Shown one piece after another: positions 1 through 20,480 of a stretch of DNA of 24,991 bases. The notes under the pieces are model-generated. The model worked only from the letters and a program-made list of their open reading frames with translations. It was not told the origin of the DNA and ran no database searches. Each line of letters opens with the position of its first letter. Position 1 is the first letter of the stretch. The DNA lies in IMG/VR virus record IMGVR_UViG_3300043543_000216, positions 1-24,991 of that record; one strand, written 5' to 3'. The DNA is from a virus. The translations under genes were made by a program, and so were the position numbers.

Positions 1-63
1 CCGCGCGCGCCGGTCGATTGACATTTCCCAACGACCTGTGCTGATTGGACTTATGCCGACGGT
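1..63 (+). promoter_or_regulatory. Leader / candidate promoter of array 1
   Basis: This stretch directly precedes the first repeat of array 1. It has a perfect -35 hexamer TTGACA at 18-23, but no convincing -10 hexamer 16-18 bases downstream (CTGATT at 41-46 is poor). It ends with CTTATGCCG at 50-58, and the same nine bases occur just before the first repeat of array 2, so both stretches look like copies of one leader. The window starts here, so the upstream part of the leader, where cas genes would be expected, cannot be seen. That it drives rightward transcription is inferred from its position on the side with the least-degraded repeats. Confidence 0.45.
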
Positions 64-1530
64 GTAACAGTGCCTGCGCAGTGGCTGATTTACTGCGACC
101 GGTCGGTGGGTGCTGGCGGCGGAGGCGGAGGGCGCGTAACAGTGCCTGCGCAGTGGCTGATTTACTGCGACTAGTCGCAGCTTGGTCGTGCTTTCGAGGA
201 ACGCAACGGTAACAGTGCCTGCGCAGTGGCTGATTTACTGCGACGACGCACCCCCGTGGGCCGCTGCCCGCAGTGAAGCTATAACAGTGCCTGCGCAGTG
301 GCTGATTTACTGCGACCTGGATGCGTTGTGCCAGATCGAGGACGCCCCCTGATAACAGTGCCTGCGCAGTGGCTGATTTACTGCGACGCAACCGCCTTGG
401 ACAGCCTCCCCTCGGCCACCAGGTAACAGTGCCTGCGCAGTGGCTGATTTACTGCGACCCGCCCGAGGCCGTCCTCGTTGTGACGGATGCGAGGTAACAG
501 TGCCTGCGCAGTGGCTGATTTACTGCGACGGTCTGGAGCTGGTGCCGGTGAAACAAGCACGGAGAGTAACAGTGCCTGCGCAGTGGCTGATTTACTGCGA
601 CTCCGTGCGTGGCGGGCGCGAGGGACTGTTTGTGCCGTAACAGTGCCTGCGCAGTGGCTGATTTACTGCGACGCCCGCTGGTGCCCCGTGACGCACTGCC
701 GCCGCCGCCGGTAACAGTGCCTGCGCAGTGGCTGATTTACTGCGACCGGGTTGGGGGGGTCGTTTTCAGAGGTGTCGACATGTAACAGTGCCTGCGCAGT
801 GGCTGATTTACTGCGACGAGTGCCCTTGTCTGCACTGCCAAGCACGGAGGTTTGTAACAGTGCCTGCGCAGTGGCTGATTTACTGCGACCTCGCAGGGAT
901 CCGGGGCCGCACCACGCGACCCGATGTAACAGTGCCTGCGCAGTGGCTGATTTACTGCGACCCCTGTGTGTGGCAGGCCGGACTGGTGCTTGGTGGCGTA
1001 ACAGTGCCTGCGCAGTGGCTGATTTACTGCGACGAACACCCTGCGCCCAATTCGCACCGCGGGGATAGGTAACAGTGCCTGCGCAGTGGCTGATTTACTG
1101 CGACCGGGTAGCGGACTTAGAGGCGTGGGCGGCCCGAGAGTAACAGTGCCTGCGCAGTGGCTGATTGACTGCGACGCCGGCTGAGTCGTGGTCTGGCATC
1201 ACAACCACGGTAACAGTGCCTGCGCAGTGGCTGACTTACTGCGACGGTATGCCGATGGCGGCTGCCTAAATCTGGAACCGTAACAGTGCCTGCGCAGTGG
1301 CTGATTTACTGCGACTCAATTCTTCGTTGTCACGCAGGCCAGCGTCCGCCGTAACAGTGCCTGCGCAGTGGCTGATTTACTGCGACCGGGGCACTTTTGG
1401 CCAGCCTGATTTGGCGGCTCCGTAACAGTGCCTGCGCAGTGGCTGATTTACTGCGACGGTAACACGCGACCCCTACGCCTCAAGCGCGGCTGGTGTAACA
1501 GTGCCTGCGCGTTGGCTGAGCTATTGCGAC
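64..1530 (+). CRISPR. CRISPR-like array 1, intact part (21 repeats, 20 spacers)
   Basis: Twenty-one 36-bp repeats start at 64, 136, 209, 281, 352, 423, 494, 566, 637, 711, 782, 854, 926, 998, 1069, 1140, 1210, 1280, 1351, 1422 and 1495. They are separated by different spacers of 34-38 bp. Each repeat begins GTAACAGTGCC (first base sometimes A) and ends GCGAC. Between these lies a hairpin, CGCAGT, a 9-nt loop, then ACTGCG. The first 15 copies are identical after the first base. Copy 16 has GATTGAC, copy 17 GACTTAC, and copy 21 is clearly degenerate, so the array decays rightwards, which puts the leader on the left. No cas gene is in the window, so type and activity are unknown. The unit is about 72 bp, a multiple of three, which creates long spurious reading frames. 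Confidence 0.85.
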
Positions 1531-1565
1531 TGCCTGCCGGGCAGCGGTGCTATACTTCTGGGGTA

Positions 1566-2275
1566 CGTGATATTGCCAGCGCAGTGGCTGACTTACTGCG
1601 CCCCCAGGTCGGGGTTTCCAACCTCCTTTACCCGGCCTGGGTGATGGTGCCTGCGCAGTGGCTGATTTACTGCGACCTATAATGCCCACGCCATCGAGCA
1701 ACATGACCTCGCGTCGCCAATGCCCGCGCGGTGGCTGAGTTACCGCGACAGGGGGACGCCCGCCCAATGAGAATTTCAATGAAGTGTCGCAATGACCGCG
1801 TGCAACGGGATAACCGACGCAATGCTTGCGCGGCGGCTTGGCGGCTGCGACTACTAGGCATTGCGATTGCGGCGCGAGTCAATGCCTGCGCGGCGGCTGA
1901 GTAGTCGCGATCGGCCGAGGGCAAGTAGTGCGTGCGCCGTGCTGGCAATCTCGGCAACATCGCTACGCTTGGGCAGCGGTTTGGCGGCTGCCACTCTGGC
2001 TGCGATCACATCGAAGTGTCTGCGTGCCGACTTGTAGAGCCACGCCTGCGCAGCGGTCCGCTTGCTGCGACAAGGCCCCGCGTGACAATCGCGATGCCCG
2101 CGTGGTGGCTTGGTTACCGCGACTTGGCGACGTTGGAGAACGAGGCGAGCGCGCGGACGAAGTGCCGCGAGACGCGATGCCCGCGCGGCGGCCTGAACGC
2201 CGCGACAACCGCAAGCGAAGCCGCGCGCAGTGAGACACGGCAGTAGGCCGGCGCGGTCGCTTGTTCGCCGCGAGA
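1566..2275 (+). repeat. Degenerate distal tail of array 1 with covarying hairpins
   Basis: About twelve decayed repeat units continue array 1, ending near 1602, 1676, 1749, 1820, 1851, 1911, 1958, 1994, 2071, 2123, 2206 and 2275. The 5' part of the repeat is lost and only the hairpin plus terminal GAC or similar stays recognisable. Stems differ but mostly still pair: CGCGGT/ACCGCG (1714-1749), CGCGGC/GTCGCG (1880-1911), GGCAGC/GCTGCC (1966-1994), CGCAGC/GCTGCG (2049-2069), CGCGGC/GCCGCG (2176-2206). The unit near 1789-1820 is barely recognisable. Spacers here vary from about 23 to 54 bp. No protein-coding gene is supported. Confidence 0.7.
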
Positions 2276-2371
2276 GGCTGCGTTGTGCCACGTTTCCGAT
2301 GGCCCAATTGGTGCATGGCTCTCGATTTGCGTTGCCTAACCCTTTGCGGTATCTTGTCTTATGCCGGTGCT
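2276..2371 (+). promoter_or_regulatory. Leader / candidate promoter of array 2
   Basis: This is a 96-bp repeat-free, relatively AT-rich stretch between the array 1 tail and the first repeat of array 2. A sigma70-like pair, TTGCGT at 2327-2332 and TATCTT at 2350-2355, is spaced by 17 bp and would start transcription just before the array. CTTATGCCG, shared with the array 1 leader, sits at 2358-2366 next to the first repeat. The shared motif and the sharp switch from decayed to perfect repeats mark this as an internal leader. Promoter function is inferred. Confidence 0.5.
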
Positions 2372-4486
2372 CCGAAAGTGCCTGCGCAGTGGCTGATTGA
2401 CTGCGACTACGTGTCGTGGCTGGTGGGTGCGTTGCGTCCGCGCCGAAAGTGCCTGCGCAGTGGCTGATTGACTGCGACCCGGAGCCATGGACGCCTTCAA
2501 GCTGGAGCACCGGCCGAAAGTGCCTGCGCAGTGGCTGATTGACTGCGACGTCACCGAGTGACGCAGTTCGTCACGCCCCCTTCCCCGAAAGTGCCTGCGC
2601 AGTGGCTGATTGACTGCGACGCGGCACACGCCCCGCACCACGGCCGCCAGCCGCCGCCGAAAGTGCCTGCGCAGTGGCTGATTGACTGCGACTGGAGCTG
2701 GACCTTCCCACGCGGCCCCATCCCTTGCCCGAAAGTGCCTGCGCAGTGGCTGATTGACTGCGACGGGGTTGGCCATCTTTGCTTTCCTGCCAGATCTCAT
2801 CCGAAAGTGCCTGCGCAGTGGCTGATTGACTGCGACGACACCCCTGACCGGCCGCAATGTGGTGGTGATACCTCCGAAAGTGCCTGCGCAGTGGCTGATT
2901 GACTGCGACTTGCTGGGGGGGGTTCCAGCAGCAATTCCGACGGCCCGAAAGTGCCTGCGCAGTGGCTGATTGACTGCGACGAGTCGCAGCCGAGTCGTAG
3001 ATTCCAAGAACGCAACCGAAAGTGCCTGCGCAGTGGCTGATTGACTGCGACCTGGATGGCCTTGCCCGGCAGGCGGCCCCGCAATCCCCGAAAGTGCCTG
3101 CGCAATGGCTAATTGACTGCGACGGCCAGGCCGGTCGCCGCCAACCGCCGCAGCGCCTCCCGAAAGTGCCTGCGCAGTGGCTGATTGACTGCGACCGGCG
3201 TCCGCCCCGCGAGGAGCGCGACCTGCTTGTCCGAAAGTGCCTGCGCAGTGGCTGATTGACTGCGACTGCAAAGCGGTTGCCATCAAGACGGCAAACGGAA
3301 TTCTGATAGTGCCTGCGCAGTGGTGGATTTACTGCGACGTGTAGTGCAAAAGCACTATTTGGGCGGCACTGGCCGAAAGTGCCTGCGCAGTGGTGGATTT
3401 ACTGCGACCCACGCCCATCGTCGCGACATGCGGCACATGGATGACCGAAAGTGCCTGCGCAGTGGTGGATTTACTGCGACGACCCCGCGGCGATTCGGGC
3501 TTGGCTGAGCGAGCCGGCCGAAAGTGCCTGCGCAGTGGTGGATTTACTGCGACCTACTTAGGCGGTATTTCCGTTCGGACGCTGTGGCCGAAAGTGCCTG
3601 CGCAGTGGTGCATTTACTGCGACGCCGTCGAACTCGGCATGATTGCCGAGCACTACTCTCCGAAAGTGCCTGCGCAGTGGTGGATTTACTGCGACAAGCG
3701 GCTCAAAGCATTCGGGGCGGGCGTGCAGCCCCGAAAGTGCCTGCGCAGTGGCTGATGTACTGCGACGAGGAGGTGCGGTCGCGCGTGCTCGGCGCCCTGC
3801 TCCGAAAGTGCCTGCGCAGTGGCTAATGTACTGCGACCGCGCTGGATTTGGGTTGGTGGCTTTCGGTGGTGTGCTGAAAGTGCCTGCGCAGTGGCTAATG
3901 TACTGCTGCGACCCGCTGACCCAGCACGGCTTCCACGACGCGACTACCCGAAAGTGCCTGCGCAGTGGCTAATGTACTGCGACCTGCCTTCGGGGGCGAC
4001 CTCCCACGCATCCCGCAACTGAAAGTGCCTGCGCAGTGGCTGATGTACTGCGACAATTGGACCGAATTGGCCCGAATTGGCCCGAATTGGCCGAAAGTGC
4101 CTGCGCAGTGGTGGATTTACTGCGACGATGTTGCCCCGATCTTACTTGTCACCTCGCCCGTCCCGAAAGTGCCTGCGCAGTGGTGGATTTACTGCGACCT
4201 CGCCAGCCAGTCGCGCAACTCGCCCACCGGGTATAGCCGAAAGTGCCTGCGCAGTGGCTGATTGACTGCGACCTGCTCGACGTGCAGAGGCCTGTCCTAC
4301 TGAACGGCCGAAAGTGCCTGCGCAGTGGCTGATTGACTGCGACGCCGCAACGACGAATGCCGGCGGCGCGGGCAAGTGCCGAAAGTGCCTGCGCAGTGGT
4401 GGATTTACTGCGACGATCGATATGCCAATAAAGGCCGAACTAGCGCTGATCCGAAAGTGCCTGCGCAGTGGTGCATTTACTGCGAC

Positions 4487-4521
4487 GATGTCCAGGAGGA
4501 CTGTTGAGCCGTACTTGACCG
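4487..4521 (+). other. Spacer with exact 35/35 match to a virion gene in this window
   Basis: This spacer begins GATGTCCAGG and ends CTTGACCG. It is the perfect reverse complement of 20093-20127. The identity covers the whole spacer and stops exactly at both repeat borders. A rightward transcript of the array would be antisense to the mRNA of the gene starting at 20088, covering codons 2 to 14. On the strand matching the spacer, the protospacer is flanked 5' by ATCGATGA and 3' by ATCAT, neither of which matches the repeat. Confidence 0.95.
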
Positions 4522-4626
4522 CCGAAAGTGCCTGCGCAGTGGCCGACCTACTGCGACGAGGGCCATCGTTTCGGGACCGCTCGACACAGATAAACTGAAA
4601 GCGCCTGCGCGGTGGCTGATTCACCG

Positions 4627-4748
4627 CGACGAGGTGGAGCTCGACAGCCACGACAATTGACAATGCCTGCGCAGTGGCTGATTTACTGCGACGAGGTGGA
4701 GCTCGACAGCCACGACAATTGACAATGCCTGCGCAGTGGCTGATTTAC
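4627..4748 (+). repeat. Tandem duplication of one repeat-spacer unit (62 bp)
   Basis: The segment beginning CGACGAGGTGGAGCTC occurs at about 4627 and again at 4689. Each copy includes the same short spacer, ending CACGACAATTGA, and the following hairpin repeat. The copies are identical up to GATTTAC, after which the second continues with CGCAAC instead of TGCGAC. This is duplication of a whole unit, not new spacer capture. Confidence 0.85.
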
Positions 4749-4860
4749 CGCAACGTCTGACGGGTGGCATCCCCAACACGATGCCTCTCTGAAACTGCCT
4801 GCGCAGTGGCTGATCTACTGCGACCCACCCACGCAACGCGACCGGCACACGCGCAACCAC

Positions 4861-5757
4861 ATGATCATGCCTGCGCGGTGGCTTTTAAACTGCGACCGGC
4901 AGCTTGGGCACATGCCCGCCCTTGACCATGCTCAAATGCCTGCGCGGCGGTTTCGTTGCCGCGACCGAGCCGAAGGGACTGTCGGGCTGGAAGGACGTGA
5001 TCAGCAACTGTGCCGGCCAAATCGGGAGAACTCCTGCGCGGCGGTTTGGTTGCCGCGACGCCACACCCACACGCCGGATGCAAGGACGAGCCAGCGCCAC
5101 GACGCCTGCGCGGCGGCCTCATTGCCGCGACACCACCAAGGCAAGGGCATCCGCGGCCGGGTCGCTCGTCGCGACGCGCAGTCGAAATGCCAGCGCGGTG
5201 GCTTCTTTATCGCGACCTCCCGCGGCGCGCGGCTGGCCAACCAAAAACCGACATGTCTGCTTGGCGACTTGGTTGTCTTGACTTGCGCCTCGGCCACGAC
5301 CGTGGTTGTGAAAAAGTGATCAACGCCTGCGCGGCGGCTTGGTTGTCGCGACTCGCGCCTCGGCCACAGCCTCGGTTGTGGGAAAGTGGTCAATGCCTGG
5401 GCGGCGGCTTCGTTGCCGCCACTCGTGCCTCGGCCAGTATCTCAGCCCTGACAAACACACCGGGCCTGCGCGGCGGCTTCGTGGCCGCGACATGGTCAGC
5501 TTGGTGAGCCGTCCAAGGAATCCGCAAAACCTGCGCGGCGGTTTGGTTGTCGCGACGCGGAGCTGACGGCAGCTCCATTGACACGACCATCTGATCCAGA
5601 CAAGATCCTGGTTTGCCGATACCTGCGCGGGGGGGTCATGCCCGCGAGCCAGCGGTGTGTCCGAGCGACATCATGCCTGCGCGCCGGCTAGGGGCGGCGC
5701 GACGAGAAGAGCCTGGTCTCACGATATTCCCTGCGCGCGGGGGCGAGTTCGCGCGAC
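4861..5757 (+). repeat. Degenerate distal tail of array 2 with covarying hairpins
   Basis: About fourteen decayed units end near 4896, 4965, 5059, 5131, 5175, 5216, 5281, 5352, 5422, 5491, 5556, 5648, 5703 and 5757. Their common form is roughly CAATGCCTG, stem CGCGGC, 9-nt loop, GCCGCG, AC. Stems change in pairs: CGCGGT/ATCGCG (5216), GGCGGC/GCCGCC (5422), CGCGGG/CCCGCG (5626-5646), CGCGCC/GGCGCG (5680-5701, 10-nt loop), CGCGCG/CGCGCG (5734-5755, 10-nt loop). The unit ending at 5281 has mostly lost its stem. Spacers are 12-66 bp. Three consecutive spacers (from about 5282, 5353 and 5423) share a CGCCTCGGCCA-like start, so they arose by duplication. No coding gene is supported here. Confidence 0.7.
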
Positions 5758-6126: not shown

Positions 6127-6508
6127 ACCGGAGGCGATCGATCAGCCGGACCAGCCAGCGGCTGGGGAAGGGCTTCTGGAATCGCCCGGCCAGGAAGATC
6201 TGATCAATGACGCGGTTGAGAAGCTGGTTCTGGAAATCCAGGCCAAGCGAGGCCAGCGACTCAACAAGCAGGCCCTGGCACAGGCCCTGCTGGTGCGATT
6301 CGGTGGCTACCAGGCCATCGCGAAGCTGATCTACGAGCTGTACAAGACTAGCAAGAAGGGTTCGAGCACTCGCAGCAACATCGTCCGGATGATCGTCAAC
6401 TGCATCGCTTCGGAGAGGATTCAAGACGAGGCCAATCCGCTCCTCGATCTAAAGCCGGATCAGCTCCGGAGTCTGATGCGCCATGCCCTGAACAACTTCC
6501 GTGAGTAG
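6104..6508 (+). CDS. Probable terminase small subunit (by position)
   Basis: This 134-aa acidic, mostly helical protein ends just inside the start of the large terminase gene (8-bp overlap). The first 30 residues are proline- and acid-rich and look disordered. The body contains Lys/Arg-rich helices (residues about 45-100) that could bind DNA, including a QALLVRFGGYQAIAKLI helix pair. Small terminase subunits usually sit directly before TerL, are 100-200 aa and have an N-terminal helix-turn-helix. That, and nothing stronger, supports the call. The alternative is an unrelated small regulator of the packaging operon. Confidence 0.45.
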   Translation: MNQNHAPEPEAIDQPDQPAAGEGLLESPGQEDLINDAVEKLVLEIQAKRGQRLNKQALAQALLVRFGGYQAIAKLIYELYKTSKKGSSTRSNIVRMIVNCIASERIQDEANPLLDLKPDQLRSLMRHALNNFRE

Positions 6509-8333
6509 CCGCCCGCAACTGCCCTGGAGCACCGGCAACATCGACCCGTCGGCCCCGGTCTGGCGGGAACGCGCCAAATCCATCGAAAAGATCGAGCAGG
6601 TCACCAAGCGGCGCAGGCCGAAGAGCTGCCCCTCCCTACCGGCGAGCAAGGCCCACCTGGAGTGGCTCTACGAAATCCTGGAAACCTACGTGGCGCAATG
6701 CACCGACGCCCTGGCGCTATACCGCGCCCTGCCGGCCTGCGAACGCTTCCACGCCTCGATGGCCAGGCAGAGGATCGTCTCCGGAGGCAACCAAGCTGGG
6801 AAGTCCCTGTGCACGGCCATCGAATTCGCGAGGATCCTCAGGGGCAGGGATCCCTACCATAAGCGAGCCGCGAAGGGCATCCGTGCCATGGTCGTCGCCT
6901 ACGATGAAGACCACGTGGCGGACGTGATCTGGCAAAAGCTTTGGTGGCCCGGCGCATTCTACATCATCATCGACAGGGAAACTGGCCTTTGGCGAAGCGT
7001 GAGGTGGGACGAGAACGACCCATCAAGGCTCGACCCCGGTGACGCGAAGAGGCGGAGCGAATGGTACCCCTCGCCTCCCATCATCCCCGCAAGCGAGGTC
7101 CTCAGCCTCTACTGGGTGAAGAAGGGCCGAGGAGTGCCTGACCGGGTGATTCTGAACAACGAATCGATGGCGACCTTCCACACGAGCCGCGGGGCGCCGC
7201 GCCAGGGCGTGGAGCTGGACTACGCTTGGTTCGACGAGGAAATCGAGAACCGTCGGTGGCTGCCCGAGATTTCCGCCCGGCTGGTGAAACGTGACGGGCT
7301 GTTCGTCTGGTCGGCCACGCCGCAGCACGCCACCCACCATCTGATGGAGCTGCATGCCCAATTCCTGGCCGGCGAACCGAACATCGAGGAGTTCACCCTA
7401 TCGACGGGCGACAACCCCTTCCTGTCCGAGGATGGGAAAACGGACCTCTACCGGAAGCTGTCCGCCCTAGGCGACGATGAACTGCGCGTGCGGTGGCACG
7501 GAGAATACGCGGCCGAGAGCCGACGGATTTACCCGCAGTTCGACCCTTCCATTGGTCAGAACGGGGTGACATCCTTCCGGATTCCCGATGACTGGATGCG
7601 GATTTTGGCCGTCGATCCTGGCACCGCGTTCGCCGCCGCGCTGTTCCTGGCCGTGCCGCCAGACGGCGGAGAGCTGCACGCCTACGACGAGGTATTCCTG
7701 CGAAACACGACCGCGGCCGAGCTGGCATCCCAGGTGAAGCTGAAGCATGGATCGAAGTTGCAGTTCGAGGTCTTCATCATCGACGGGAAGACCGCGCATC
7801 AGACGCCGCAGGGATTCGGCGTCCGCATCCTCGACCACTACGCCCGGGCATTCGAGATAGTCGGCCTGTCGTCACGGCGCACCGGGTCTTCCTTCCTGTA
7901 CGGGAACCCGGATCCGGAAAGCCGCACGATCATTCTGCGGCAGATGATGCAGCGCTATGAGGACGGCACTCGCCGCTTAAAGGTCCACAGGGAGAACTGC
8001 CAGTACCTGATCAGACAGATCCAGAGTCGGTATTACTCCAAGGCGAATGCCGAGAAACGCGAGCGAGCCGATCGTCCGAACACCGTCCTCTGGCGATGCG
8101 ACCTAGTTGACTGCCTCGAATATGGAGCCGCCTGGGTCGCCGAGATAAGCGGTGGCGTGGACGAGCCGTTCGCGTGGTACAAGCCGGCCAGCTCGCGGGA
8201 CACGACCAATCAGGTACAATTGGGTGATGGTGCCTACCCGGACTTCCTGAGAGCGTATAATCGCGCCAAGCAGCAGACTAGCGGGCTGCATTCCCATTCG
8301 TTCACGGCAGCATTGAAAAGGATCGCATGGTGA
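6501..8333 (+). CDS. terL: Terminase large subunit (DNA-packaging ATPase and nuclease)
   Basis: This 610-aa protein translocates phage DNA into the prohead and cuts it. The N-terminal ATPase has a Walker A motif GGNQAGKS (about 95-102), a Walker B strand LDYAWFDEE (about 239-247) and a coupling motif SATP (271-274). The C-terminal RNase H-like nuclease shows the expected acidic residues in ILAVDPG (D372), FIIDGKT (D428) and CDLVDCLEY (D534/D537). All catalytic residues appear present and the length fits the family. It starts with GTG, overlapping the upstream stop by 8 bp, which suggests translational coupling. The downstream gene overlaps its end by 7 bp. Confidence 0.95.
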   Translation: MSSRPQLPWSTGNIDPSAPVWRERAKSIEKIEQVTKRRRPKSCPSLPASKAHLEWLYEILETYVAQCTDALALYRALPACERFHASMARQRIVSGGNQAGKSLCTAIEFARILRGRDPYHKRAAKGIRAMVVAYDEDHVADVIWQKLWWPGAFYIIIDRETGLWRSVRWDENDPSRLDPGDAKRRSEWYPSPPIIPASEVLSLYWVKKGRGVPDRVILNNESMATFHTSRGAPRQGVELDYAWFDEEIENRRWLPEISARLVKRDGLFVWSATPQHATHHLMELHAQFLAGEPNIEEFTLSTGDNPFLSEDGKTDLYRKLSALGDDELRVRWHGEYAAESRRIYPQFDPSIGQNGVTSFRIPDDWMRILAVDPGTAFAAALFLAVPPDGGELHAYDEVFLRNTTAAELASQVKLKHGSKLQFEVFIIDGKTAHQTPQGFGVRILDHYARAFEIVGLSSRRTGSSFLYGNPDPESRTIILRQMMQRYEDGTRRLKVHRENCQYLIRQIQSRYYSKANAEKRERADRPNTVLWRCDLVDCLEYGAAWVAEISGGVDEPFAWYKPASSRDTTNQVQLGDGAYPDFLRAYNRAKQQTSGLHSHSFTAALKRIAW

Positions 8334-8710: not shown

Positions 8711-10771
8711 ATGCCCGTTTCAGAGGCGTTCAGGGCGGCCGTTCAGGCCTGGCAAAAGGTCCTCCAGATCGCCCTGGACTACAAGCAGATCCACTTCCAG
8801 GCCGACGCCGACGAGGCGATGCGGTTCTATGCCAGGTCGAACTACGAGTTCCTTTACACCCTGGACACGGACGACCTGGCCTCGCAGTACAACATGCCAG
8901 CCGTCGGCGAGCCGCGGCACAAGATGGCGGCGAACCTGGTCTCGAACATGGTGCAGGTGCTCCTGCCAGTCCTGTACCACCGGAACCCGACGAGGCTCGT
9001 GACGGCCAGGCTGCCAGACGTTGACGTGCAGCTCATGGCACAGCACGCCGCCACGATGCATGCGGCCCTCGATCCGGCCACCGGGCAGCCCGCCCCCATC
9101 CCAATGCCTGGGATGATGGATCAGCACTGGAAGGTGAAGGCGCAGCTCATGACGGCATTCCTGAACGCCACGCCAGGCGAGCTGAACCTGCGCAGGGAAT
9201 GCCGGCGAGCAATCACGGACGCACTGATCAGCGGCATGGGCATCGTCTGGTGCGAGCTGGTGGAGACCGCCTCCGGCATGCTTCCAGGCTCGTTCTACGT
9301 GTGCAGTCGCGACGTTCTGTTCGATAGCGACGAAACGGAGCTGCGGGACTGCCGTTGGGTGGCAAGACGGAAAAGGGTTCCCGTCTGGCAGGCGGAGACG
9401 ATGTTCGGATGGCCACGAGGCGATCTGAAGGGAAATGCGGAGGGGAGGACGAACCAGGGGTGGATCGATGGCGGCGGCCGCGGCCAGGAAACGCGGCTGA
9501 CGGACGAGCAGACAACGAACGACCAGATCGAATACTGGGAGATCTACTCCAGGATGGGGCTGGGCGGTCGGCTTCGCGGGCTCAACGAGGAAGCACAGGC
9601 CATTCTCGACCAGCTTGGGCAGTATGTCTATCTGGTCGTCGCGAAGGGGGTGGACTATCCGCTAAACGTTCCTCCGCACCTGTTCGAGTGGCCGCCAGAC
9701 CAACTTCTCGCGGAGTTGCAGGCCAGGCTAGCGTGGCCCATCCCGACCTACAAGCGGGCTAGGAATCCATGGCCCTTCGCGGCCCTGTGGTTCCATGAGC
9801 GCACCGATTGCGTCTACCCGCAATCCCACGTGATGCCGGCCATGTCGTATCAGAAGGCGATCAACTGGATTTATACCTATTTGCTAGGTAGATTGCGGGT
9901 TGCCAGCCGGACGTTGATGGCCTGCCCCCAGGGGCTCGACGAACGGGTGAAGGAGCAGATCCTGTACGGCGGCGATCTAGAGCTGATCGAACTCAAGACC
10001 CACGACATCGAGAAGTTCGGCGACATTCTGCGATACATCCAGGTCCCCGAGGTCACGGCCGAGCTGTGGAAGGTCTTGTCGGCCGTCAAGCACGAGTTCG
10101 AGCTGGCCACGGGCGTAACCGAGCTGCTGCAAACGGGGATGACCTCCCAGGCCATGCGATCGGCGACGGAGGCCCAAGTCAAGCAGGGGTTGGCCCAGCT
10201 CCGGCCCGACGACATGGCGACCATGACCGAGGAGTGGATGGGCGAGATGGCGGCCAATGAGGCGTTCGCCGCGGAACTGTTCCTTGGTCCCGAGGATGTC
10301 GCCCCGATCTTCGGAGAGCCGTACAATCCAGGTGACCCCGCGGCCGGCATCCCGGAGCAGATGGGACCGCTCACGCGGCTCTGGATGGAGGTGGCCCATT
10401 CGCCAGACCTGTCCAGCGCCTCATCGACCCTCGAATATCGAGTCGAGAGCGGCAGCGCCAGGAAGCCCAACAAGGAGTGGCAGCAGTCGCAGGCGATGCA
10501 GGCCATGCAGACGTTCATGCCGCTGTTGATGCCGCACTACCAGCAGACCGGTGACCCGACGCAGATCAATCGCCTGCTAACCTACTGGGCGCGGGCGCAA
10601 GACATCGAGGACTACGAGAGCCTGCTGCTGCCAGACCGGAGGGCCGAGATGGCCGCCATGCAGCAGGCCATGCAACAGGCACCTAGTGGCAACCGACGAC
10701 CGCCGCCGTCGGAGGCGGCTACCCAGCCCCTTCCGGAGGAGGCGGCACGGATTCTCGCATCCCTGCAATAG
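8711..10771 (+). CDS. Portal protein (head-to-tail connector)
   Basis: This 686-aa protein is expected to form the dodecameric ring at the capsid vertex through which TerL pumps DNA. Supporting evidence is position directly after terL, size in the range of podovirus portals, and an architecture with an Asn/Met-rich N-terminal helical zone (MAANLVSNMVQVLL), a clip/stem region, and a long helical C-terminus rich in Gln, Ala and Met (about 590-686) like portal barrel or crown segments. No enzymatic motif is seen. No strong ribosome site precedes the ATG, so coupling to the upstream gene six bases away is likely. Codons around 10295-10311 resemble the start of one array spacer. Confidence 0.8.
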   Translation: MPVSEAFRAAVQAWQKVLQIALDYKQIHFQADADEAMRFYARSNYEFLYTLDTDDLASQYNMPAVGEPRHKMAANLVSNMVQVLLPVLYHRNPTRLVTARLPDVDVQLMAQHAATMHAALDPATGQPAPIPMPGMMDQHWKVKAQLMTAFLNATPGELNLRRECRRAITDALISGMGIVWCELVETASGMLPGSFYVCSRDVLFDSDETELRDCRWVARRKRVPVWQAETMFGWPRGDLKGNAEGRTNQGWIDGGGRGQETRLTDEQTTNDQIEYWEIYSRMGLGGRLRGLNEEAQAILDQLGQYVYLVVAKGVDYPLNVPPHLFEWPPDQLLAELQARLAWPIPTYKRARNPWPFAALWFHERTDCVYPQSHVMPAMSYQKAINWIYTYLLGRLRVASRTLMACPQGLDERVKEQILYGGDLELIELKTHDIEKFGDILRYIQVPEVTAELWKVLSAVKHEFELATGVTELLQTGMTSQAMRSATEAQVKQGLAQLRPDDMATMTEEWMGEMAANEAFAAELFLGPEDVAPIFGEPYNPGDPAAGIPEQMGPLTRLWMEVAHSPDLSSASSTLEYRVESGSARKPNKEWQQSQAMQAMQTFMPLLMPHYQQTGDPTQINRLLTYWARAQDIEDYESLLLPDRRAEMAAMQQAMQQAPSGNRRPPPSEAATQPLPEEAARILASLQ

Positions 10772-19539: not shown

Positions 19540-20091
19540 ATGACCCCATTTGAGATCTACTTTGGGAACCTGATGAATCAGGCGATCGCCGACGCCTCGC
19601 TCGGAAGCGGTTCCGGCCTGGCTGGAGCCTTCGGGCAGGCGGCGCAGCAGAACCTCCTCGCCAAGCAGTTCCTGGATCAGCTCAATCTCCAGAGACTCAC
19701 GCAATACGACCTGCCGAAATACCAAACGGACGCCCAGACGCAGCTCGCCCTGGAGTTGGCGAGGCTGCGTGCAAGGGAACGGGCCAACATGCTGGCCGGC
19801 GCGGCCACGCAGCTCCCGATTCTGCTGGGAATGCTTGGCTCCCTAGGCGTCGGGCCTGGTATCCAGGGCTGGGATATTCGAGACGCCCAGGGGAATGTCA
19901 CCAGCAGCGTCAGGCTCCCGACGGGCGGTGGGTTTGGAGGAGGCGCCGGTGCGTTCGGAGGCATGCCAAACATGGCCGCCAGGCGCTGGCTCAAGGCGTT
20001 CTCCCACCCTGGCGCCACGTGGGATAAACAGCTCGGCTGGCAATTCCGGCCGTGGGGCGTTCCCCCGACACGGCGTAGACAATACCTATGA
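19540..20091 (+). CDS. Candidate internal virion protein (183 aa)
   Basis: This Gln/Ala/Leu-rich helical protein has a first half rich in amphipathic helices (AAQQNLLAKQFLDQLNLQRL, LALELARLRARERANMLAG). A hydrophobic Gly-rich segment ending LPILLGMLGSLGVGPG and a Gly-rich linker follow. Such composition is common in small ejection proteins of podoviruses. It opens the block of long Gln/Ala-rich genes and overlaps the next gene by an ATGA. Its C-terminal hydrophobic motif recurs in that neighbour (LLSFLSSLGVGI), so the two may be related. No named family is recognised. Confidence 0.6.
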   Translation: MTPFEIYFGNLMNQAIADASLGSGSGLAGAFGQAAQQNLLAKQFLDQLNLQRLTQYDLPKYQTDAQTQLALELARLRARERANMLAGAATQLPILLGMLGSLGVGPGIQGWDIRDAQGNVTSSVRLPTGGGFGGGAGAFGGMPNMAARRWLKAFSHPGATWDKQLGWQFRPWGVPPTRRRQYL

Positions 20092-20480
20092 TCGGTCAAG
20101 TACGGCTCAACAGTCCTCCTGGACATCTCATCGATAACTTCGAGCAGCGACTCCGTGCGTTGTTGGGAGATGTCAAGCCGCCACCCTTCATTCAGCCAGG
20201 GCCACCGCGAGATTTCTACAATCCCTCGGCTCTCGCTCAGAATGCCGCCACCTCGGCCATGGCCGCGCGGATCGCTGGCCAGACCGCCGCGGCAAACCTG
20301 CGGAACCAATTCCTGCCGCAGCTAGCCAGCTACAGGCAAAAATGGCAGGCGGATAGGGCATCCCAGGCATTCAACGCCATTCAGCAAGCACAGCAGCTCC
20401 AGCAGGCAGCCAACGCATTGCATAGGCAGAGGCTCCAGGCCTTGTTGTCGTTCCTGTCCTCGTTGGGAGTCGGCATCTAG
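20088..20480 (+). CDS. Candidate internal virion protein; target of an array spacer
   Basis: This 130-aa protein is coupled to the previous gene by an ATGA overlap. After a Pro-rich N-terminus (LGDVKPPPFIQPGPPRDF) it is almost entirely helical and Gln/Ala-rich (NAIQQAQQLQQAANALHRQR), ending in a hydrophobic tail like that of its upstream neighbour. The function is probably a small ejected or structural protein, judged only from composition and context. Bases 20093-20127, codons 2-14, are the exact complement of the spacer at 4487-4521. Confidence 0.65.
   Translation: MIGQVRLNSPPGHLIDNFEQRLRALLGDVKPPPFIQPGPPRDFYNPSALAQNAATSAMAARIAGQTAAANLRNQFLPQLASYRQKWQADRASQAFNAIQQAQQLQQAANALHRQRLQALLSFLSSLGVGI
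20093..20127 (-). other. Protospacer: exact complement of spacer 4487-4521
   Basis: All 35 bases are identical to the spacer on the minus strand. The flanks (5' ATCGATGA and 3' ATCAT on that strand) differ from the array repeat, so this is not a copied array unit. It begins five bases into the coding region, next to the ribosome-binding zone, where an antisense RNA or bound effector could block translation or transcription. Confidence 0.95.

Follow-up and report, generated by a model that had tools for sequence, protein, structure and literature searches.

Type V-M (formerly V-U1) CRISPR-Cas12m systems are known from Mycolicibacterium, Gordonia, and plasmids (PMC10442227, PMC11013384, PMC11656645). 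In the crRNA of Cas12m2, a pseudoknot of six pairs is combined with a stem, a G.A closing pair, and a terminal C (PMC10442227). Phages also encode type V-U systems, as described for huge phages (PMC7162821) and for the cyanophage vB_AphaS-CL131, which harbors a V-U2 system (PMC6293099). In addition, viruses carry mini-CRISPR arrays and solitary repeat units or RNA anti-CRISPRs (reviewed in PMC11656645; PMC10651486), the latter being characterized as repeat mimics located apart from arrays and inhibiting a Cas complex of the host.

The locus analyzed here was found in a window of 24,991 bases, which is a complete IMG/VR record. It resembles the type V-M systems by its 36-nt repeat, which contains a 3′ short stem and a 6-bp pseudoknot ending in A-C, and by the presence of Cas12m adjoining the array in related records. 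It differs from them by its location on a phage, by the distribution of 59 spacers in two arrays with no effector visible on the fragment, and by a loop of 9 nt instead of 8 according to the published numbering. As in the phage V-U systems, arrays that appear to be of type V are carried by a phage and no adaptation genes were seen; some spacers, as in those systems, may be directed against other phages. In contrast to the compact arrays reported for phages (median of six repeats), the window harbors two long arrays and a pair of spacers with presumably homologous targets. Solo units scattered in phage genomes (G006, G008, and G010) are comparable to the known solitary repeat units but are built on a V-M-like scaffold, occur in several copies per genome, and have retained their base pairing. 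Since phage-borne V-U and V-M CRISPR systems have already been described (PMC7162821, PMC6293099, PMC11656645), the system of the window is a new member of this group.

Phage-borne arrays and their repeat scaffold

Both arrays are carried by a phage since the genes encoding the terminase large subunit and the portal protein are located on the same contig of the IMG/VR record (Table 1). The first-pass annotation described the arrays and a pair of similar spacers, referred to below as twins, but missed the phage carrier, the CRISPR type, and a self-matching spacer. Spacer boundaries and the alignment were recomputed with fixed 36-nt repeats. The two arrays have similar leaders (72% identity between positions 14-99 and 2322-2407, first repeat included) and different repeat variants. 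At 4631-4656 and 4693-4718, two short spacers of 26 nt are identical; with their repeat, they mark a unit that was recently duplicated in tandem.

Table 1. Features of the window.
Feature	Position	Strand	Observation
Partial leader, array 1	1..63	+	Truncated by contig end; any effector gene would lie beyond
CRISPR array 1	64..1749	+	36-nt repeat GTAACAGTGCCTGCGCAGTGGCTGATTTACTGCGAC; 23 spacers, 34-38 nt; final units diverging
Twin spacer, array 1 no. 2	172..208	+	37 nt; minus strand reads VAFLESTTKLRL
Divergent repeat units after array 1	1719..2274	+	Irregular spacing; pairing counted
Leader, array 2	2322..2371	+	Resembles 14-63
CRISPR array 2	2372..4965	+	Repeat CCGAAAGTGCCTGCGCAGTGGCTGATTGACTGCGAC plus variants; 36 spacers
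Twin spacer, array 2 no. 9	2981..3015	+	35 nt; minus strand reads AFLESTTRLRL
Spacer 18, array 2	3624..3659	+	28/36 to Synechococcus phage S-CBS3 helicase-methylase gene, LGNHAEF motif
Spacer 30, array 2	4487..4521	+	35/35 identical to DNA of the phage itself
Divergent repeat units downstream of array 2	4866..5556	+	Irregular spacing; pseudoknot helix in all counted
Terminase large subunit	6501..8333	+	phrog_2, E 3.7e-14; Pfam PF03237
Portal protein	8711..10771	+	phrog_156, E 4.8e-12
Self-matched gene, 130 aa	20088..20480	+	No PHROG match
Self-protospacer	20093..20127	-	First codons of ORF 20088-20480; 5′ flank TTATCGATGA (TGA, no TTN)

The architecture of the repeat, GCC-UG-CGCAGU-GGC-UGAUUU-ACUGCG-A-C, fits the Cas12m2 crRNA scaffold, as GCC may pair with GGC and CGCAGU with ACUGCG, followed by A-C. 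One of the features expected of a type V-M system, a 36-nt repeat with a 3′ stem and pseudoknot scaffold, is therefore present in the window. A search of Rfam returned no match. Covariation was assessed for the 9 pairs of the scaffold in 57 distinct units from all records, which had been gathered by sequence patterns without any pairing requirement. Pairing was found in 98.1% of the cells versus 86.9% following shuffling, and double changes in 59 cells versus 16.8 in the shuffles. Pairing was far lower in every slid register. Among the divergent units counted in the region following array 1, all contained the 6-bp pseudoknot helix and all but one the 3-bp stem. Downstream of array 2, the unit ending at position 5422 harbored a double change in the pseudoknot helix, from C-G to G-C. 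Because base pairs are kept, compensatory changes such as the latter included, the divergent units flanking both arrays look maintained and not simply decaying.

Screening of IMG/VR with a relaxed repeat pattern led to further records, and Cas12m genes were found to adjoin the same repeat family in three of them (G009, G015, and G016). G015 (193 kb) contains, at 27 kb, an array of 16 spacers that shares the repeat core; it is preceded by a gene for a 628-residue protein (P0001), which matched PADLOC Cas12u1 (E 4.9e-75) and the solved Cas12m 23vw (E 2.8e-52). An array and a Cas12m gene were also present in G009 (94.5 kb; protein P0002) and in G016 (210 kb). CasPhi (Cas12j), initially considered on account of its repeat, was dropped once Cas12m had been found to adjoin the same repeat family. 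Based on the repeat scaffold and on these relatives, the arrays of the window appear to be of type V-M (Cas12m); no cas genes were found on the 24,991-base fragment, the left end of which cuts the leader of array 1.

Solo copies of V-M-like scaffolds were observed in intergenic gaps of related phage contigs (L024, L039, L040, and L042, in G010, G008, and G006). No Cas12m gene was found on the contigs of G006, G008, and G010, and a TnpB-like protein is encoded by G006 and G010. Matches to the repeat pattern in GTDB genomes were mostly chance matches in GC-rich coding sequences, convincing units being limited to two MAGs (G017 and G018). The latter, an Acidimicrobiaceae MAG, harbors a Cas12m-like gene (L085, contig 474; E 6e-42) and similar solo units on other contigs, which may hint at the host group.

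Two spacers reading as the same peptide but for one residue

Recomputation confirmed that the twins match at 26 of 35 positions in the same register, the 5′ ends of both spacers being aligned. Their similarity is real. On the minus strand, the twins read (V)AFLESTTKLRL and AFLESTTRLRL, as previously proposed, although the spacer of array 2 contains 11 residues and not 12, its V codon extending by one base (position 3016) into the repeat that follows. The nine differences are located in five codons (CTA/CTC, AAG/CGG, ACC/ACT, AGC/TCT, and CTC/TTG), of which four are synonymous and one leads to a K/R change. Each of the remaining reading frames displays 3-5 residue changes. The frame is closed by a TAA codon within the repeat in array 1, as had been noticed, but the same frame is open in array 2 (ORF 2336-3286). 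The peptide-level score of the twins (48) ranked first among all spacer pairs, related records included; the maxima of six shuffled sets were 33-46, one set at 46 approaching the observed value.

We propose, with a probability of about 0.7, that the twins are entries in paralogous phage-carried V-M-type arrays, each captured on its own, at the same site, from one of two protein-gene homologues that had diverged. The twins probably originate from competing phages or from another mobile element. The interpretation put forward in the first-pass annotation is partly supported: capture at one site from two diverged homologues is the best reading, whereas the notion that the donors were related elements is plausible only.

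One twin might instead be directed against a gene of the phage itself, located outside of the 25-kb fragment, and the other against the homologue of a rival, the array being partly self-acting, for example in timing expression of the phage's own genes. This scenario accommodates the perfect match (35/35) between spacer 4487-4521 and the phage itself, as well as the case of G015, another Cas12m record, where spacer 1 is identical at 36/36 positions to a site elsewhere in that record flanked by TTG (spacer sites of G015, L032 15054 and L033 6132). It is improbable, as the part of the phage genome covered here lacks the twin peptide and the self-site of the window is devoid of a TTN flank.

Copying of one twin from the other would imply that an ancestral array was duplicated and that the pair is the last recognizable survivor of neutral divergence. 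Duplication of an array did occur at some time, as indicated by the similar leaders and related repeats. However, there is no second similar pair, the next best cross-array pair matching at 18 of 35 positions, and a spacer would have drifted by 26% while the repeats remained nearly identical within each array. In simulations of neutral substitution with transition weights of 1 to 4, nine random substitutions left any of the six frames open with no more than one changed residue in 0.09-0.27% of the trials. The peptide therefore survives neutral drift in only 0.1-0.3% of the simulations, although the corresponding p-value (about 0.001-0.003), obtained for one pair, is not overwhelming. Neutral divergence following array duplication is accordingly much less likely than two captures from homologous coding DNA, which are favored by the way in which the codons differ, by the shared register at the 5′ ends, and by the absence of any other shared spacer. 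The purifying selection in a target protein claimed in the first-pass annotation is an inference, as the target gene itself was not found in the collections searched. Chance similarity, conceivable since there are about 800 cross-array pairs and the twins were noticed after looking, is very improbable because none of 400 sets of dinucleotide-shuffled spacers of both arrays reached 26 matches (best in-register match of 24, mostly 17-20) and because the codon pattern provides an independent second test.

Sources of other spacers and search for the target gene

The few spacers with an identifiable source seem to point to phage genes. Among the spacers of the window, one was close to a cyanophage methylase motif (28/36) and one matched the phage itself, the remainder having no match. 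In the related records, spacer 15 of G015 matched at 34 of 36 positions a site located just upstream of a transposase-like gene of the same record. In three other records, AAA+ Walker-B codons matched spacer 1 of G016 at 28 of 35 positions, with mostly synonymous changes, a TTC flank, and the peptide EQA(E/N)GGTL(F/L)LDE. The self-matches and the methylase-like and Walker-B-like spacers make it credible that the twins derive from coding DNA of related phages. Relative to the gene, the guide is in antisense orientation for the twins, the self-match of the window, spacer 1 of G015, and the methylase case, and in sense orientation in the G016 case. In type V-M systems, a T- or C-rich PAM is expected 5′ of the protospacer; the flanks observed here are TTG (self-site of G015), TTC (homologous site of G016 spacer 1), and TGA (self-site of the window). 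The sole perfect protospacer of the window, which is a self-site, has no TTN flank.

The self-matching spacer of the window is located in the older, repeat-divergent part of array 2. The first bases of spacer 25 of array 2 (4127-4162) match the portal gene at position 10295 (16/17) before diverging, possibly by chance.

The 12-residue peptide pattern was detected neither in IMG/VR nor in GTDB genomes. Shorter patterns provided candidates that were all rejected: five matches in short spurious ORFs for a 9-residue pattern, a single unrelated match for AFLExTTxLRL, and two stretches for VAFLESTT, neither of which was confirmed. Comparison of the spacers to phages and plasmids by blastn revealed chance-level matches only. 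Profile searches of PHROG and PDB with padded peptides gave nothing, 12 residues being too few for such searches. The twin peptide was present in none of the 395 genomes of the class of the MAG harboring similar units. These searches, in line with the checks proposed in the first-pass annotation, identified no target gene in IMG/VR, GTDB genomes, phages, and plasmids. Such an absence is weak evidence and says little, since no more than two or three of the 59 spacers have any relative in the collections searched.

Proposed mode of action and significance

If the twins were captured separately from two homologues, their mode of action may be proposed by analogy with Cas12m systems. Transcription of the arrays would proceed from the leader, and the repeats would each fold into the Cas12m pseudoknot scaffold and present their spacer as a guide. 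With the crRNA paired to the coding strand of the target gene, a Cas12m that binds DNA without cutting it, and which the phage would have or use, would then block transcription of the target. The two versions of the spacer would cover two sequence variants of this target. More speculatively, the phage might employ its V-M arrays, together with the divergent solo units that have kept their pairing, as a standing RNA-guided regulator of its own genes and of those of its rivals, the perfect self-spacer matching the start of one of its genes and the paired spacers tracking variants of one rival gene; we consider this extension unlikely.

If two captures did occur, the twin pair would be a rare trace, preserved in the sequence, of one site in a gene family having been sampled twice by a phage CRISPR system. 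Tracking of variants in phage-phage competition would then be testable even with an unsequenced target, because codon degeneracy between the twins reveals the reading frame. Less expected are the self-match and the solo units with conserved pairing, both of which deserve a separate study. In particular, with self-matching spacers present in two records, it may be asked whether a Cas12m that does not cut allows phages to retain guides directed against themselves, something that would be impossible with a cutting effector.
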